Shown here: piece by piece, positions 3,537 to 14,351 of the stretch
How the letters are laid out: every line of letters begins with the position of its first letter
Numbering within the stretch: the first letter of the stretch is position 1
Virus record (IMG/VR): IMGVR_UViG_3300032224_001122
Span: 1-20,208 of that record
Direction: 5' to 3' (one strand)
Source: a virus
DNA length: 20,208 nucleotides
The notes under the pieces: generated by a model
The model's database searches: none
What the model was told of the DNA's origin: nothing
What the model saw: only the letters and a program-made list of their open reading frames with translations
Made by a program: the position numbers and the translations under genes

Positions 3537-4103
3537 TTATACCGTTTTGATTGTCACTGCCTGTACTTCTGGATGCACAACAAACCCTGCCTTACGTGCT
3601 TGATCTGGTTGCTCCAGCATGGCGGTTTTGATAGGCTCCGGCAGTTGACTTACCAAGATAGACTCTTTGAGCTTGATGGCTGCCGGGCAGTTCTTTCGCG
3701 CCCAGACAAGGGCTGCATCTTCCGACTCCACTGCAACCTTTGGAAGTAGTGTCCTAAAGGCTACCGTGCCATAAGGGCATGTCCAGGTCTTAGCCTTGAG
3801 CGTTCCATCTGCCTTGCGTGGTAACTGACTCATTGCGTAATCTTGCAGCTGGGCGTTGTACTGACGCTCCAGCCATTCAAGTTTTGCAACTTGCTTGCCG
3901 ATGATGGCTTGGCAGTTCTGCACGATCGCATTCATTTTAGCCGTCTCAGCATCGATGGCTGCTTCAATGTCCATACGCTTCCGCATGACCAGCAGTGCCA
4001 AGTCTTCTGGTGATTCGTTACCTGTTATCCAGCCTGATGCCGGGCCAGCGTATTCGCCCGTTTCTTCATCCCACAGCTCGCCATGCATCTCGATCAAACT
4101 CAT
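3537..4103 (-). CDS. Gam / Gp157-like coiled-coil DNA-end protein
   Basis: The 188-aa protein has a long helical, coiled-coil-like stretch (about 35-92). After it come the basic-aromatic segment K105-T-W-T-C-P-Y-G-T-V-A-F-R117 and a short C-terminal hydrophobic strand. This resembles the Mu Gam-like host-nuclease inhibitors and the siphovirus Gp157 family, which share this architecture; I cannot separate them by eye. Gam-type proteins bind duplex DNA ends and shield them from host RecBCD/AddAB. The neighbouring ERF annealing gene supports a recombination role. The ATG at 4103 follows GGGAGG closely and overlaps the upstream stop as ATGA. A longer reading from a TTG at 4118 would put the Shine-Dalgarno inside the gene and is rejected. 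It is the last gene of the leftward operon. Confidence 0.6.
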   Translation of the reverse strand: MSLIEMHGELWDEETGEYAGPASGWITGNESPEDLALLVMRKRMDIEAAIDAETAKMNAIVQNCQAIIGKQVAKLEWLERQYNAQLQDYAMSQLPRKADGTLKAKTWTCPYGTVAFRTLLPKVAVESEDAALVWARKNCPAAIKLKESILVSQLPEPIKTAMLEQPDQARKAGFVVHPEVQAVTIKTV

Positions 4104-4318
4104 TTGATTACCTCCCAATCGTTCCGAACTTCTTGTCTTTCTTTGTCGTACAAGTCGCTTACTGGTGGCGTGTAGCTCATCCGATTACCGTTTGGCAGAT
4201 GAAGCACCAGCGAGTCTGCACCGATGGATGAGAACCGGACAACCATGCCCGGCTCCCAACCTTTACGCCTGATGCTCAGGTCTTCAAAAAGCCTGAAGTA
4301 GACCTGTCCGAATGTCAT
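4100..4318 (-). CDS. DUF2829 / Tad2-like small protein
   Basis: This 72-aa protein fits the DUF2829 pattern, now called the Thoeris anti-defense 2 (Tad2) domain: a short N-terminal helix (M-T-F-G-Q), a basic-Trp turn R17-R-K-G-W21, a central beta region, Y-T-P-P-V-S-D-L, and an ending N-D-W-E-V-I. Characterised Tad2 proteins sequester cyclic nucleotide signals made by Thoeris and CBASS; many DUF2829 members have no assigned job. It lies inside the recombination operon, with ATGA stop-start overlaps to ERF upstream and the Gam/Gp157-like gene downstream, implying translational coupling and early expression. Related small proteins are encoded on the + strand at 11026-12125. Signal sponging here is inference from family membership, and ligand-pocket residues were not checked. 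Confidence 0.55.
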   Translation of the reverse strand: MTFGQVYFRLFEDLSIRRKGWEPGMVVRFSSIGADSLVLHLPNGNRMSYTPPVSDLYDKERQEVRNDWEVIK

Positions 4319-4800
4319 CGTGACAATGGCCTTGCTGATGTAGGTTTGATTGGCTCATCGATTACGATGTTTCCCTGTGGGCCTCTACGGTAGCCATCCT
4401 GAGCCTGCACGGCTCCATTGGCATCATCATCCTCATCTGCGCTTATAGCCAGCAGAGCGGACACAGAGTATCTACGACCATAAGTAAGAGCTGAGCCAAG
4501 GCCGTGAGCATCTGGCTTTGTCACTGGGATGGTTACCGTCGTGCTGATCCATTCACCTGATGTATGGATGATTCGAGATTCTACAGTGACGGCTTGCATC
4601 GTCTCCGGTTGGTGGCTACCCTGCGTAAGCATCAAACCATTGTTTGTAAGGATAGGGCGCAGAGTGTCCAAGATGGAATCAAGGGTGACGTACTTTGACC
4701 GGAAGGCGGGGTTCTTACCTTCCTTGATGATGCCTTGCATCTGGCTTTGTGCCTTGATGAGAGCAGGGGCAATAGCCCCTATTGTTTCGCTACTTTTCAT
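4315..4800 (-). CDS. erf: ERF-family single-strand annealing protein
   Basis: The 161-aa sequence has the ERF signature: N30-P-A-F-R-S-K-Y-V-T-L40, L-x-P-I-L-T-N-N-G-L, and the C-terminal core G100-L-G-S-A-L-T-Y-G-R-R-Y-S followed by A-D-E-D-D-D-A-N (about 121-128). ERF proteins, first described in phage P22, bind ssDNA and anneal complementary strands in phage recombination and genome circularisation. Length and domain order are typical, with a disordered Pro/Arg-rich tail. The ATG at 4800 has AGGAG (4812-4808) seven bases upstream, overlapping the stop of the preceding 88-aa gene, and its own stop overlaps the next start as ATGA. It is the second gene of the leftward operon. The family call is secure. 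Confidence 0.9.
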   Translation of the reverse strand: MKSSETIGAIAPALIKAQSQMQGIIKEGKNPAFRSKYVTLDSILDTLRPILTNNGLMLTQGSHQPETMQAVTVESRIIHTSGEWISTTVTIPVTKPDAHGLGSALTYGRRYSVSALLAISADEDDDANGAVQAQDGYRRGPQGNIVIDEPIKPTSARPLSR

Positions 4801-6073: not shown

Positions 6074-6907
6074 TTGACACCTAGTAGGTCAATCGTACGG
6101 CAGACGCTCCGGGCTTTGAGTAAGGCTCCGGAGCGTTTGTTATCTCACGATGAGATGGTCTTACTCCATCAAGCGTGGGCAGCTGACATCATGCCCAAAG
6201 AATGCATGGCCGAGATGGTTCATCGGAACATTGGCCTATGCAAAGAGATGGCCAAGCAGATCCACAAGCAGGATGACTTTGAGGATGCTGTGGCTTTCTG
6301 TATGCAGGGTCTCGTCACTGCAATCCACCGCTGGGATTCCACTCGCAATCTTAGGTTTTCGACCTACGCTATGAAGTGGATAATCCAAAAGTATCGACGG
6401 TACCAGTCAACCCAAAGCAAAACGATACGGGTATCCGAGCATACAATCTATAAGTGGTACAGGATACGCAAGGCACACGATCAGCACCTGCACAAGTATG
6501 GCACGGCTCCAACGGATGAGCAGCTCGCAGAGTACACAGGCTTATCGGTTACCATGGTGGGCATTGCTAGAGCCAGCCAGCATGTCGAGCCGATGTCCCT
6601 GTCAACTCTTATTGCTGGTACCGATGGTCTAGGCTTTGAAGATTGCAGGGTGCTAGGAGCCTCCACAAGCCCCGAGGATGCGTACATCGCTGATTCATGG
6701 GCAACTAGACTAGGTGATGCTTTGCTAAGCCTAGATGACGATTCAAGATATTTACTGGTTAGGCGCTTTGGTCTTGATGGATCTAAGCCGGAGACACTGC
6801 GGACGATAGCCAGCCGGTACAAGACTCCCGTAAGCGTCATTGAAGCGCAGATTGAGACAGCCTTGGCAACCATACGGGGGCGGTATGAAGTTGAGGATTT
6901 GACTTGA
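6074..6907 (+). CDS. Phage-encoded sigma70-family RNA polymerase sigma factor
   Basis: The 277-aa protein has sigma regions 2, 3 and 4 in order. Region 2 (about 45-110) reads like a primary sigma: H50-R-N-I-G-L, D-F-E-D-A-V-A-F-C-M-Q-G-L, I-H-R-W-D, and R94-F-S-T-Y-A-M-K-W-I-I-Q. Region 3 (about 118-172) keeps T-I-R-V-S-E and P-T-D-E-Q-L-A. Region 4 (about 211-273) has L-L-S-L-D-D-D-S-R and R-R-F-G-L-D-G with a helix-turn-helix. It would redirect host polymerase to phage promoters, most simply the late ones. No region 1.1 is present. The TTG at 6074 lies next to the preceding stop; a strong hairpin covers codons 10-22, and an in-frame ATG at 6155 is a possible shorter start that would cut into region 1.2. 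The family call is secure; target promoters are unknown. Confidence 0.88.
   Translation: MTPSRSIVRQTLRALSKAPERLLSHDEMVLLHQAWAADIMPKECMAEMVHRNIGLCKEMAKQIHKQDDFEDAVAFCMQGLVTAIHRWDSTRNLRFSTYAMKWIIQKYRRYQSTQSKTIRVSEHTIYKWYRIRKAHDQHLHKYGTAPTDEQLAEYTGLSVTMVGIARASQHVEPMSLSTLIAGTDGLGFEDCRVLGASTSPEDAYIADSWATRLGDALLSLDDDSRYLLVRRFGLDGSKPETLRTIASRYKTPVSVIEAQIETALATIRGRYEVEDLT
6101..6139 (+). other. GC-rich hairpin over the start of the sigma gene
   Basis: CAGACGCTCCGG (6101-6112) pairs with CCGGAGCGTTTG (6128-6139), 12 bp including one G-U pair, around a 15-nt loop. It lies 27 bases after the TTG start and is followed by TTATC, so it could slow translation or partly terminate transcription before the sigma gene. 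Confidence 0.5.
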
Positions 6908-10687: not shown

Positions 10688-11029
10688 ATGAAACAAACTA
10701 ATCAATCACTAACGGAAGCCATCAAGGATATGGCACGACGTGCTATCGACAGAAGCAATGACCCGTTTGCAGTTATCGATGTTCCGTTACTGATTCAGGT
10801 ATCAAGCGACCATACAGAAATCTATATGTACAAAGGTGATCTACATCTTCTGATTACTCTTACTGGCGATAATACGGGTATTCACGATTGCAAATACGTT
10901 GGCTACACTTTACAGAATCCATTCTGGGTAAATGACTTGAAGATAGCTGATGTTATTGCTGACATTTGGGCTGTGGCATACGAAATCGACAAGATGATGA
11001 ATCATCAGCCTGTGTTGGTAACCGTATGA
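10688..11029 (+). CDS. Hypothetical accessory protein
   Basis: The 113-aa product is not recognised. It has a short N-terminal helix (T-E-A-I-K-D-M-A-R-R-A-I-D-R), a beta-rich centre (P-L-L-I-Q-V-S-S, T-E-I-Y-M-Y, L-H-L-L-I-T-L-T-G) and a C-terminal helix. No membrane segment or metal site is visible. The ATG at 10688 has GGGAG (10676-10680) seven bases upstream, and the stop overlaps the next start as ATGA. A sampled line of this gene has about 35% GC, lower than the structural genes, suggesting a more recent acquisition. It opens the run of small overlapping genes that includes the DUF2829-like set. Confidence 0.65.
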   Translation: MKQTNQSLTEAIKDMARRAIDRSNDPFAVIDVPLLIQVSSDHTEIYMYKGDLHLLITLTGDNTGIHDCKYVGYTLQNPFWVNDLKIADVIADIWAVAYEIDKMMNHQPVLVTV

Positions 11030-11235
11030 CAGTAACACCATGCACAGCAACCGAAGCTCTCAAGGCACTACGCCTTGGGAGCAAGGTTCGATGCATTGTT
11101 TGGGCTGAAGGTCGCTACATCGAAGTAGTAGCCGAAAAAATCACCCTCAACAATAAAGAAGCACACATCCTTACACAAAACAGCATTCTTCAGGATTTTG
11201 TATTGTGTGATGGATGGGAGATTCTAGACTATTGA
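11026..11235 (+). CDS. Small protein, possible divergent DUF2829/Tad2-like member
   Basis: The 69-aa product begins M-T-V-T-P-C-T-A-T-E-A-L-K-A-L-R-L-G-S-K-V-R and ends C-D-G-W-E-I-L-D-Y. The order helix, G-S-K-V-R turn, Trp strand (I-V-W-A-E-G-R-Y-I-E-V), beta region and terminal D-G-W-E-I resembles DUF2829, but the basic-Trp turn is weak, so the assignment is tentative. The ATG at 11026 overlaps the previous stop as ATGA, and the next gene starts at its own stop (TTGA). A longer reading from 10966 overlaps the previous gene by 64 bases and is rejected. If truly Tad2-like it would be a signal-binding sponge; otherwise it is an unknown accessory protein. Confidence 0.6.
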   Translation: MTVTPCTATEALKALRLGSKVRCIVWAEGRYIEVVAEKITLNNKEAHILTQNSILQDFVLCDGWEILDY

Positions 11236-11468
11236 CCGGGCATTACCGCACAACCAAGATTCAAGCCCTCAGCGTCATTGACGACTGGGGGTTGGACTTT
11301 GCGACAGGCAACGTGATCAAGTACTTACAGCGTTGCCCACACAAGGGACAGTCGAATGCAGACGGCATCAAGGCTCTCTGGTACATGGCCTATGCCGCTA
11401 CCAAGGACACCGATTACGCTGATCGGATAGCCAGGGAAGCCGAGGAGATAAATGGCACTAGCATTTAG
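11232..11468 (+). CDS. DUF3310 family protein
   Basis: The 78-aa protein matches the short phage family DUF3310: H-Y near the start, then I-Q-A-L-S-V-I-D-D-W-G-L-D-F-A-T-G-N-V-I-K-Y-L-Q-R, H-K-G-Q, and D-G-I-K-A-L-W-Y-M. The family is widespread in phages, often annotated as a nucleotide-kinase-like or SaV-like protein, but has no proven function. The TTG at 11232 is chosen because it overlaps the previous stop as TTGA, the same arrangement as the VRR-NUC start, with GGGAG (11216-11220) upstream; an in-frame ATG at 11214 is the alternative. It overlaps the next gene by 17 bases. Family call is good; role unknown. Confidence 0.75.
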   Translation: MTGHYRTTKIQALSVIDDWGLDFATGNVIKYLQRCPHKGQSNADGIKALWYMAYAATKDTDYADRIAREAEEINGTSI

Positions 11469-11883
11469 TTTAGAAGAAAAGAAAGAGCGCATCCGGCAAG
11501 CGATGGAAATCTATAACAACACCGGTACTTGGTCGAAAGCCGATGACATCGTACGGCGGCAAAGCGTAGAGAAGTGGTTACGCAATCCGGAGCTGCTGGC
11601 CTACGCGCAAAGCCTTGGGTACCAGCAGATGTGTACCGATGAGGTGGCCGGCTTTGCACCCGTTACGGCACACTACACCGCTCGGATAGGGTTTAGCGGT
11701 GCCTTGGTGCATATGAAGGACGGCAAGTATCTTTGCCGGGACGGCGCAAGAATCCACTATGCTATCAACCACGGCCAGCTCGTAATGTACAAACTTGACG
11801 GGGCAGGAGTACGGCATCATGCAGGCCCGGCCTACTTCCGTGGTGCTGATGTGTTAGCCAACGACTGGATGATAATCAGATGA
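11452..11883 (+). CDS. Two-part protein with possible DUF2829/Tad2-like C-terminal half
   Basis: The 143-aa protein has a helical N-terminal half (about 5-60; I-V-R-R-Q-S-V-E-K-W-L-R-N-P-E-L looks like a small helix-turn-helix or peptide-binding helix). Its C-terminal half is beta-rich and ends in Y-F-R-G-A-D-V-L-A-N-D-W-M-I-I-R. That ending is close to the ending of the next protein (A-S-D-L-F-A-E-D-W-M-I-G), the DUF2829 signature, so the half is likely a relative with a new N-terminal domain. The ATG at 11452 has GAGGAG just upstream, and the stop overlaps the next start as ATGA. A fused sponge/sensor is a possible reading; the family link rests on the C-terminal pattern only. Confidence 0.55.
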   Translation: MALAFSLEEKKERIRQAMEIYNNTGTWSKADDIVRRQSVEKWLRNPELLAYAQSLGYQQMCTDEVAGFAPVTAHYTARIGFSGALVHMKDGKYLCRDGARIHYAINHGQLVMYKLDGAGVRHHAGPAYFRGADVLANDWMIIR

Positions 11884-12125
11884 GATATAACCAGGCACTT
11901 GATGCCTTGCTTGCGGAGAAGCCCATACGCCGGGCTTTGTGGCCTGATGGGCTACACTTCCGGTTCTCTGAGCTATGGGACACCTTTAGCGTTGCAGAGG
12001 GTACAGAGGTCAAGGAAAACAACTCGGTCATCTGGCTTACCGCTAGTGACCTGTTCGCTGAAGACTGGATGATCGGTAAGTATAATCCGGTAACCGGGGA
12101 GCCGATATGGGAAGAAAGCAAATGA
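11880..12125 (+). CDS. DUF2829 / Tad2-like protein
   Basis: This 81-aa protein is the clearest DUF2829/Tad2 member of the window: Y-N-Q-A-L-D-A-L-L-A-E-K-P-I-R-R-A-L-W (helix and basic-Trp turn), a beta region, then V-I-W-L-T-A-S-D-L-F-A-E-D-W-M-I. Canonical members run from E-A-L-x-x-L-x-x-G-K-x-V-x-R-x-x-W to W-x-P-S-x-x-D-L-L-A-x-D-W. Known Tad2 proteins form small oligomers that capture cyclic ADP-ribose or cyclic dinucleotide signals and so disarm Thoeris or CBASS. The ATG at 11880 overlaps the previous stop as ATGA, and the next gene starts with the same overlap. Family call fairly secure; activity against a named defence system untested. Confidence 0.7.
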   Translation: MRYNQALDALLAEKPIRRALWPDGLHFRFSELWDTFSVAEGTEVKENNSVIWLTASDLFAEDWMIGKYNPVTGEPIWEESK

Positions 12126-12316
12126 TACCTTTTGCCATTGGTGCTTTGGTGGGGGCTGGATGCGTGGTGGTATGGTCGGAGATGTATACACGTTGGCTAT
12201 ACGCTGATGTCAAGAGACGGGCGAAACAGCAGGGCATCACAGAACGTCAGATGAGAGATGCCCTGCTTTGGGCAGCTACAGAAAACATTGAGGAGAGTCT
12301 AGATGGCAAGCGGTGA
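12122..12316 (+). CDS. Small membrane-anchored protein
   Basis: The 64-aa product starts with a membrane helix (I2-P-F-A-I-G-A-L-V-G-A-G-C-V-V-V-W, about 2-18) followed by a charged cytoplasmic-type helix (D-V-K-R-R-A-K-Q-Q, E-R-Q-M-R-D-A-L-L). G-A-G-C resembles but does not satisfy a lipobox, because the -3 position is Gly. The ATG at 12122 overlaps the previous stop as ATGA; an in-frame ATG at 12107 is possible. It overlaps the PLD-like gene by 14 bases. A holin-like role is conceivable, but it has only one membrane segment and sits far from the endolysin. Confidence 0.6.
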   Translation: MIPFAIGALVGAGCVVVWSEMYTRWLYADVKRRAKQQGITERQMRDALLWAATENIEESLDGKR

Positions 12317-12989
12317 TACATACAAAGTGCAACCGATTGCCTACTATCGTAAAAACCGGACTTCTATCAAAACGATAGCGCGCAATAAATCAGCTGCTGA
12401 AACAATCGGAGTCATAACACATGGCTCTGGTTTTTCTGCAATTACAGCTGGTCAATGGGACATGATTGCAGCTATAAAACATTGTTTATCGCAAATTGGC
12501 CCAGCACACGTATGGTTGTCTACTTGGGTTCCCGCTATGCAGGAGATTGCTGATCTAAAAGACCTAAAAGAATCAGGGACTATAAAATCATTGACTCTTA
12601 TGATTGATACTGGTTTTCAAAACTGTCGACGGATACACGCTGAAACTACATTAGAATGGCTTGGTGCTGAAAACATAATAGTTGCGCGGAATCATAGCAA
12701 AATAGTATTAATGCAAAACGAGGCTTATGCTTATGTGCTACGCGGAAGCCTAAACCTTAATGCTAACAATCGATGTGAAAACGTTGATGGCGATGAATCT
12801 AAAGAGATGTTTGATGCATGGTTGCCGTTTTTTACAGAATATAAATCAGCGGTAGGTTTTGGTATAAATAAAAAAGCGCAGGATGTATACCGGGCGCACT
12901 GCGAAGTCATGGGAGTAAAAAACCAAGCTACAACAGTGGAAATAGACAAAGATATGCTAGAACTTGATTCGTTTTTGGAGGGTTTGTAA
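12303..12989 (+). CDS. PLD-like protein with variant HKD motif
   Basis: The 228-aa protein contains one phospholipase D-like motif: N-H131-S-K133-I-V-L-M-Q, then Y-V-L-R-G148-S-L-N151-L-N-A-N-N-R157-C-E-N160. Active PLD-family nucleases use H-x-K-x4-D followed by G-S-x-N; here the Asp is Gln, but the His, Lys and G-S-x-N remain. A single motif would act as a dimer, as in small PLD nucleases such as Nuc or BfiI. The GAGGAG upstream supports ATG 12303. It is directly upstream of terS (TAATG overlap), so packaging or DNA end processing is an appealing role. Sampled lines have about 35-42% GC, below the ~52% of a portal line. Without the Asp, catalysis may be altered. Confidence 0.7.
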   Translation: MASGDTYKVQPIAYYRKNRTSIKTIARNKSAAETIGVITHGSGFSAITAGQWDMIAAIKHCLSQIGPAHVWLSTWVPAMQEIADLKDLKESGTIKSLTLMIDTGFQNCRRIHAETTLEWLGAENIIVARNHSKIVLMQNEAYAYVLRGSLNLNANNRCENVDGDESKEMFDAWLPFFTEYKSAVGFGINKKAQDVYRAHCEVMGVKNQATTVEIDKDMLELDSFLEGL

Positions 12990-13351
12990 TGCCAGCAGGA
13001 AGACCAACTAAATACAATTCAGACAAACATAAATTAATTTGTGATGCACTAAAGGCTGGAAATACACGCCGGGATTCCTGCGGATATGCCTCTATCAGTC
13101 AAGATACATTTTCAAGATGGATTGAGGTTTATCCGGAATTTGCGGACGATGTCATCAAAAGCGAGAGTGCTGTTGCAATGCGCAATGTGGCGCTTATACA
13201 AAAGGCAGCGCAATCCGGTACATGGCAAGCGGCGGCGTGGTGGCTTGAACGCAGACGCAAAGAAGAATTTAGCGTTAGGACTGAACAGACCGGCGCTGAC
13301 GGTAGCCCGGTAAAGGTGATAGTCGAGTACGCGGATAAGTCAGGTGCATGA
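12989..13351 (+). CDS. terS: Terminase small subunit (TerS)
   Basis: The 120-aa protein begins M-P-A-G-R-P-T-K-Y, the hallmark of a large TerS group. It continues with a helix-turn-helix (about 15-45, I-C-D-A-L-K-A-G-N-T-R-R-D-S-C-G-Y-A-S-I-S), an oligomerisation helix region (A-A-Q-S-G-T-W-Q-A-A-A-W-W-L-E-R-R) and a polar tail. It binds the packaging start site on concatemeric DNA and activates TerL. GGAGGG (12977-12982) lies six bases before ATG 12989, and the start overlaps the previous stop as TAATG. The order terS, methyltransferase, terL with overlaps at each junction shows one packaging operon. Assignment is strong. Confidence 0.88.
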   Translation: MPAGRPTKYNSDKHKLICDALKAGNTRRDSCGYASISQDTFSRWIEVYPEFADDVIKSESAVAMRNVALIQKAAQSGTWQAAAWWLERRRKEEFSVRTEQTGADGSPVKVIVEYADKSGA

Positions 13352-14351
13352 GCTTCACCACGGCAACTGTCTTGACATCCTGCAAACCATGCCGGATTGC
13401 TCTGTTGACGCTGTTGTAACCGATCCGCCTTACGGCTTATCCTTCATGGGTAAGCGTTGGGATTACGATGTCCCATCAACCGAGATATGGGCAGAATGCT
13501 TGCGTTTGCTAAAGCCTGGCGGTTACCTGCTGGCCTTTGCCGGTACTAGGACTCAACACCGCATGGCGGTACGCATTGAAGATGCCGGGTTTGAGATTCG
13601 GGATATGTTGGCGTGGATGTACGGTAGCGGTTTCCCAAAGTCGCACAACTTAGACGGTGAACATCAGGGCTGGGGAACAGCACTCAAGCCAGCCATGGAG
13701 CCTATCACGATGGCACGGAAGCCATTCAAAGCCACGGTAGCGCAGAACGTGCAGGAGTGGGGTACAGGCGCAATCAACATTGACGGTTGCCGGATTGGTG
13801 AAGAGGAAATAATTCAACATAGACCGAAAGAATGGCGAGGTTTTCATAAACTGCAAGATGGTGAAATCAGCGGATATGAAGATGCATCAACAATAGGCCG
13901 CTGGCCTGCTAACGTAATGCACGATGGAAGCGCAGAGATTCGGCAAAACATGGGTGAAGCGGCACGATTCTTCTACACGCCTAAAGCCTGTAAGGATGAC
14001 CGGCACGATGGGTGCGAGATGATGAAAGAACGTTGGAAGGCTGGCTATTCATATACAGATACACCCGGTAATGCTGCGGATGGAATGTTCAAAGATAGAG
14101 AAACCTTAAAGCGCAACTTTCACCCGACCGTAAAGCCTACCGACCTGATGCGCTACTTGTGCCGTATGGTTACACCTACCGGCGGCATCGTGCTCGACCC
14201 CTTCACCGGATCAGGTAGCACCGGGCGGGGTGCCGTGCTTGAAGGATTCAGGTTCATTGGTTGCGAGATGGATGCAGACTACATCGAAATCGCGAAAGCC
14301 CGCATCCTTGCAGCTGAGAAAGCGTACCAGCCTTGTCTGACATTCGACTAG
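13344..14351 (+). CDS. DNA N4/N6-amino methyltransferase (beta-class order)
   Basis: The 335-aa protein has motif IV T-D27-P-P-Y30-G near the start and motif I D285-P-F-T-G-S-G-S-T-G294 near the end, the order of beta-type amino methyltransferases (DNA adenine-N6 or cytosine-N4). H260-P-T-V-K-P is the conserved motif before motif I; G-T-A-L-K-P-A-M-E-P and G-R-W-P-A-N-V are typical of the phage subfamily. It transfers a methyl group from SAM to DNA, probably protecting phage DNA from host restriction. The GTG at 13344 overlaps the TerS stop; an ATG at 13348 is in another frame. No restriction enzyme partner is nearby, so it is an orphan. Sequence specificity cannot be read from the protein. 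Confidence 0.9.
   Translation: MHELHHGNCLDILQTMPDCSVDAVVTDPPYGLSFMGKRWDYDVPSTEIWAECLRLLKPGGYLLAFAGTRTQHRMAVRIEDAGFEIRDMLAWMYGSGFPKSHNLDGEHQGWGTALKPAMEPITMARKPFKATVAQNVQEWGTGAINIDGCRIGEEEIIQHRPKEWRGFHKLQDGEISGYEDASTIGRWPANVMHDGSAEIRQNMGEAARFFYTPKACKDDRHDGCEMMKERWKAGYSYTDTPGNAADGMFKDRETLKRNFHPTVKPTDLMRYLCRMVTPTGGIVLDPFTGSGSTGRGAVLEGFRFIGCEMDADYIEIAKARILAAEKAYQPCLTFD

Follow-up and report, generated by a model that had tools for sequence, protein, structure and literature searches.

Shortened Tad2-like proteins, one fused to a helical domain, in a variable gene cassette of uncultured phages

Tad2 is known as a sponge that occurs once per phage and takes up a few ligands; AcrIIA7, a Tad2 homolog, is named for inhibiting Cas9. 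Tad2 sponges are homotetramers, and their ligand pockets lie between protomers. According to a review that is the only source used here for pocket residues (PMC12043709), two protomers contribute to each pocket, whose walls are formed by the beta1-beta2 and beta3-beta4 loops and by helix alpha3, and cyclic dinucleotides are held by an insertion. The reported ligands differ among Tad2 homologs and include gcADPR, His-ADPR and cyclic dinucleotides. Phage SpaA1 was annotated in 2012 with three genes of the DUF2829 family, to which these proteins belong, two of them adjacent (PMC3398947), and DUF2829 proteins have been counted near AcrIIA7 homologs (PMC6739104).

Here a 20,208-base IMG/VR virus record (IMGVR_UViG_3300032224_001122; the whole stretch is termed the window) is analyzed, for which an original prediction had named up to four small proteins of this kind. 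All four open reading frames, termed A, B, C and D, are present as predicted (Table 1). The start of C overlaps the stop of B (ATGA), and small and large terminase genes lie just downstream of the position that B occupies (the B slot). Adjoining the cassette formed by these genes is a candidate phospholipase-D-like endonuclease (12303-12989; PHROG 16945, E 2.4e-28) that has no counterpart in most relatives. The window also encodes a sigma factor (6074-6907; Sigma70_r2, E 5.2e-8) and an N6_N4_Mtase DNA methyltransferase (13344-14351); a methyltransferase of a different class (C-5 cytosine) occurs in the same neighbourhood of locus L032 (11154-12209).

Table 1. Tad2-like genes and their neighbours in the window
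Feature	Position	Strand	Evidence or remark
A, stand-alone mini Tad2-like protein, 69 aa	11026..11235	+	PF11195, canonical-only HMM, AF2 model
B, helical N-terminal domain (~1-60) fused to Tad2-like domain (~76-143)	11452..11883	+	
C, stand-alone mini Tad2-like protein, 81 aa	11880..12125	+	PF11195, canonical-only HMM
D, stand-alone mini Tad2-like protein, 72 aa	4100..4318	-	between ERF and Gam
DUF3310 gene, cassette left border, not Tad2-like	11214..11468	+	PF11753 E=1.9e-9
U69, small protein without assigned function, cassette right border	12107..12316	+	kept in relatives
ERF-type single-strand annealing protein, upstream of D	4315..4800	-	PF04404 E=4.6e-25
Gam-like end-protection protein, downstream of D	3537..4118	-	PF07352 E=4.6e-9
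Sf6-like terminase small subunit candidate	12989-13351		separate from B

The sole Pfam match for each of the four proteins is PF11195 (Tad2-like, former DUF2829), with E-values of 8.9e-6 for C, which is over the curated cut-off, and of 6.4e-4 for D, 0.015 for A and 0.021 for B, which are below it; for B only residues 130-142 (13 residues) are aligned. Because such single-sequence evidence is weak for A and B--PHROGs, PADLOC and NCBIfam, like Pfam, being too weak alone for these two--family membership needed independent tests. An HMM built from 12 Tad2s of isolated phages, without any member of the present phage group (termed here the canonical-only HMM), was run against the 127 open reading frames in the window and gave its four best scores, in this order, to C, B, A and D, with E-values of 5.7e-5, 1.6e-4, 1.2e-3 and 4.6e-3, respectively. 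None of 2,540 composition-preserving shuffles scores as well (best E-value 7.7e-3); the margin is narrow for D, which has its Pfam match besides. Four diverged copies in one phage, as originally predicted, are thus recovered: C and D, which had been said to fit the DUF2829/Tad2 pattern, rank first and fourth, and A and B, of which A and the C-terminal half of B had been said to keep its frame, rank third and second. A and B are also matched, weakly, by Pfam, so that the lack of a DUF2829 match for these two, which would have spoken against the original prediction, is not observed.

Profiles built from the phage group itself point the same way. A profile termed A1, which combines 31 stand-alone proteins of the window (A, C and D) and of its relatives and is too diverse for a pattern scan, matched seven Tad2/AcrIIA7 chains of the PDB with E-values from 2.5e-7 to 3.8e-6, an eighth match being to an unrelated designed protein (7.5e-5); among PDB sequences an alignment of B-slot proteins matched SPO1 Tad2 at 5.3e-4. 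PF11195 was matched (E ≤ 0.1) by 26 of 26 members of an A-centred alignment and by 22 of 26 members of the B alignment. A phmmer search of the PDB with C found no match, and tblastn searches of isolated phages with B and C found no significant match. Judged by these profile comparisons, A, B, C and D are members of the PF11195 family.

Single-chain AF2 models were obtained for A and B, C and D being assigned by sequence. The models predict that A and the C-terminal half of B share the Tad2 fold: for A (pLDDT 83.5) the ten best VIA-align matches are solved Tad2/AcrIIA7 entries (Z 7.3-8.7, the next match scoring 5.7), as they are for residues 76-143 of B (Z 8.5-9.8, the next match scoring 5.5), so that the models do not give the different fold that would have spoken against the original prediction. 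In Foldseek searches of the PDB, ranks 1-6 are Tad2 or AcrIIA7 chains for both models, at weak E-values (best 1.4e-3 for B and 0.25 for A), and in a comparison of B with predicted viral structures Tad2-like proteins come first. Several of the Tad2 structures matched by A and B contain a bound signal ligand. The N-terminal domain of B, which had been described as helical, has four helices in its model (residues 7-24, 27-34, 39-42 and 46-54). For both models the next-best structural match is chain S of PDB 8QKH, from the neck of phage 812 (Z 5.5 and 5.7), which is possibly a distant structural relative residing in a virion.

Relative to related phages, A has a dN/dS of 0.13-0.16, B of 0.08-0.15, C of 0.09-0.16 and D of 0.17-0.21 (one comparison of D being saturated); the corresponding values for TerL are 0.05-0.08. 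All four genes are under purifying selection, and values of 0.08-0.21 wherever they could be computed imply that all four are real genes. As a separate observation, synonymous divergence from relatives is lower for C (dS 0.27-0.78) than for TerL (1.4-1.9), suggesting that phages have exchanged C recently.

Scans of viral contigs yielded 37 loci for C, 59 for B, 8 for A, 1 for D and 80 for the B alignment, with large overlap. If a complete cassette is defined as the stretch between the DUF3310 gene and U69, then 62 complete cassettes from related uncultured phages are available, among which one Tad2-like gene is found in 7, two in 29, three in 23 and four in 3 (one of these three, L020, depending on a marginal fourth member); because the loci are interrelated and the HMMs used for counting include group members, these counts describe the group and not independent events. 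Gene number in the cassette thus ranges from one to four, with TerL at least 87% identical in the six proteins compared. A fused protein of 136-166 residues occupies the B slot in 62 of 62 complete cassettes, a count biased by the many loci that were fetched with B as query; it is also occupied in 25 of the 25 complete cassettes fetched with C. The C slot is vacant in 7 complete cassettes, and the stand-alone members form many families, roughly 15-40% identical to C. On contig G308 the fused member is followed by three genes that match PF11195 and by a fourth short gene, similar-looking and without a Pfam match, and the contig carries a copy of D as well.

Other features were seen at these loci. 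A ThyX gene (PF02511, E 6.4e-44) lies in or beside the cassette in some relatives (L028, L017, L021-L025, L036, L093 and L098), and in L028 (8992-11184) DUF3307 and dUTPase genes do so too. Tandem double Tad2-like domains apparently occur at L189 1243-1752 (Ruminococcus phage phiRg507T2_3) and at L039 7257-7802. One record, IMGVR_UViG_3300042429_000522 (62,434 bases; L025 and L151), contains two cassettes of the group that differ from each other. It may be a chimera made in assembly, or two phage genomes may be joined in it, and its copy number was not used.

For comparison, the same Pfam search was applied to 14 phages with Tad2-like genes. Ten of these have one match, and the four with two matches comprise a doubtful partial match (SPO1, E 0.0165), a gene with stop codons, a protein with two domains and a single case of a genuine second gene; members of the present group have 1-5 matches, on incomplete contigs. 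With a canonical Tad2 query, 400 of 50,697 phage records gave matches, at 410 places in all, such a single query missing diverged copies.

D stands apart from the cassette: it overlaps both of its neighbours, ERF and Gam. Among seven ERF-Gam junctions, D is absent from five, where ERF and Gam are directly joined, and present in two, namely the window and L101; it adjoins ERF in L028 and L194 too. D therefore behaves as an optional insert between these genes.

From these observations a division of labour is tentatively preferred here, in which A, C and D are sponges and B has a separate role. A, C and D would be oligomers that bind small ligands and soak up the nucleotide-derived signals on which Thoeris- or CBASS-like host defence depends, the ligand being set by the variable middle of the Tad2-like domain; copies, it is proposed, would be gained and lost because hosts differ in their signals. 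B, which never is missing and which has a probable DNA-binding domain, would more likely perform a core job, such as phage gene regulation, than act as a sponge. The sponge reading draws on the fold and profile matches to Tad2s of solved structure, several of them ligand-bound, on the variation both in cassette gene number and in the presence of D, on a copy number of 1-5 as against mostly one in canonical Tad2 phages, and on the differing ligands reported for Tad2 homologs. Against it, DUF2829 proteins also occur among the structural and lysis genes of other phages, so that not all of them need be sponges.

The ligand pocket also bears against it. The motif W-N-G-K, whose position corresponds to the beta1-beta2 loop in the model of A, a reported wall of the pocket, is present in 10 of 14 canonical phage Tad2s that were checked, and in 0 of 194 proteins of this phage group, A, B, C and D included; moreover, in the beta2-beta4 part, where an insertion reportedly holds cyclic dinucleotides, the group's domains fall short of canonical Tad2 by about 20 residues. 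Together, motif loss and shortening suggest that the Tad2 scaffold has been kept and the pocket changed, which fits either other ligands or none. That A, C and D might be sponges with different ligands, as originally proposed, is plausible. Loss of the pocket motif would be immaterial, however, if the copies blocked another defence through protein-protein contact in the manner of AcrIIA7, which is a DUF2829 protein (PMC6739104) and the best PDB match of the A1 profile. This is the least probable of the explanations considered here, and a very doubtful one: nothing in this analysis points to Cas9, and the solved AcrIIA7/HgmTad2 structures hold, by their titles, cADPR and cGG, which implies that an AcrIIA7-type member binds signals too.

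The nature of B is best approached through its relatives. Two fused forms, about 25-28% identical, occupy the B slot, and in the second the N-terminus is a helix-turn-helix of homeodomain-like type (HTH_23, over the cut-off, with E-values as low as 3.9e-7). In the distant phages L163-L167 and L169 the fused protein likewise starts with a helix-turn-helix (HTH_28/HTH_23, with E-values as low as 3.6e-9); it also has another repeat, which hhalign aligns with the helix-turn-helix of the second form (E 6.9e-7); the fused proteins of L163-L169 thus probably carry two such domains. In the N-terminus of B itself, a helix-turn-helix was recognised neither by Pfam nor by hhalign against those of the relatives; residues A30, V39 and W42 are conserved with them, and that B binds DNA is inferred from its slot. 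Because the B slot never is empty and several relatives fuse a helix-turn-helix to the Tad2-like domain, a job other than sponging is favoured for B--that is, the alternative of a DUF2829 protein with another function that the original prediction had also offered.

Alternatively, B could be a regulator of transcription or of packaging whose Tad2-like domain only oligomerises, the stand-alone copies being its partners or dominant modulators in mixed oligomers, with no immune signal involved. This account, though rather unlikely, ranks second. It gains from the ever-occupied B slot and from the location of B just upstream of the terminase genes, a usual site of late-gene regulators in other phages. 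It gains also from the overlap of B with C and the recurrence in the distant L163-L167 of the same order (a fused gene followed by a stand-alone Tad2-like gene), from the resemblance of the relatives' helix-turn-helix to terminase small subunits and regulators, and from the lost pocket motif. However, an arms race accounts better than a fixed complex for the differing number and sequence of the stand-alone copies, the window has a separate Sf6-like candidate for the terminase small subunit, and D sits in another operon. B as the terminase small subunit itself was also considered, and was put second in view of that separate candidate.

In the opposite direction, all four proteins, B included, could be signal sponges, the N-terminal domain of B merely aiding assembly. 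All share the same fold, and N-terminal extensions are fused to canonical Tad2s in other phages as well; yet B is the least canonical of the four, having no tryptophan in the beta1-beta2 loop, and is also the invariant member, and its relatives carry one helix-turn-helix or, in L163-L169, probably two, all of which makes this reading improbable. Marginally less so, and still distinctly unlikely, is that B is a sensor, in which a DNA-binding domain is joined to a Tad2-like domain that reads a host immune nucleotide, and which turns phage genes on or off, possibly those of the adjacent sponges; the stand-alone copies would then be rapidly exchanged sponges for different signals.

The hosts of these phages were sought among 84,980 genomes, in which no relatives of B were found. 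TerL matched only fragments of 37-51% identity, in Terriglobia, Pyrinomonadaceae and two Fimbriimonadaceae MAGs. PF11195 was not found in the genomes with these fragments and is rare in the phylum of one fragment group (2 of 291 genomes), so that no host is assigned.

More generally, a rotating set of shortened Tad2s beside a constant fused form provides material for finding new immune signals, and the same phage group allows one to ask whether phages sense such signals besides absorbing them. The set of copies, which the original prediction regarded as potentially new, is not quite so, given the annotation of SpaA1 with three DUF2829 genes (PMC3398947). A literature search, whose coverage mostly excluded subscription papers, found no account of a helix-turn-helix/Tad2 fusion or of such cassettes. 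What is new here is that a known fold and family has been shortened and multiplied within a variable cassette that includes an always-present fusion.

The closest described proteins set this in relief. SPO1 Tad2 (gp34.65; PF11195; PDB 8SME, 8SMF and 8WJE) has the same fold as A and B (Z 7.3-9.8) and the same order of motifs--a helix with A..AL..G, then R-x-x-W, then a C-terminal D/N-D-W-x-I; its domain has about 84 residues as against about 64-72 in the window, where the W-N-G-K loop motif is missing and where there are four copies, one of them fused. HgmTad2/AcrIIA7 and SptTad2 (PDB 8KBI-8KBM and 8WJD) share fold and family with the window proteins, which are without their long, reportedly cyclic dinucleotide-binding insertion; ModTad2 of a Myroides odoratus prophage (PDB 8V3E and 9EIB; His-ADPR-binding) also shares fold and family, but is a single canonical copy with W-N-G-K-G-M. 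Many cassette members weakly match PHROG families 1048, 872, 6670 and 643, of which 872 and 1048 are longer proteins with a C-terminal Tad2-like part and no assigned function and 643 is labelled a transcriptional regulator. SpaA1 resembles the window in having several copies per phage, two of them adjacent; its copies are described as homologs of SPO1 gp34.65, with no fusion noted and no variable cassette described (PMC3398947).
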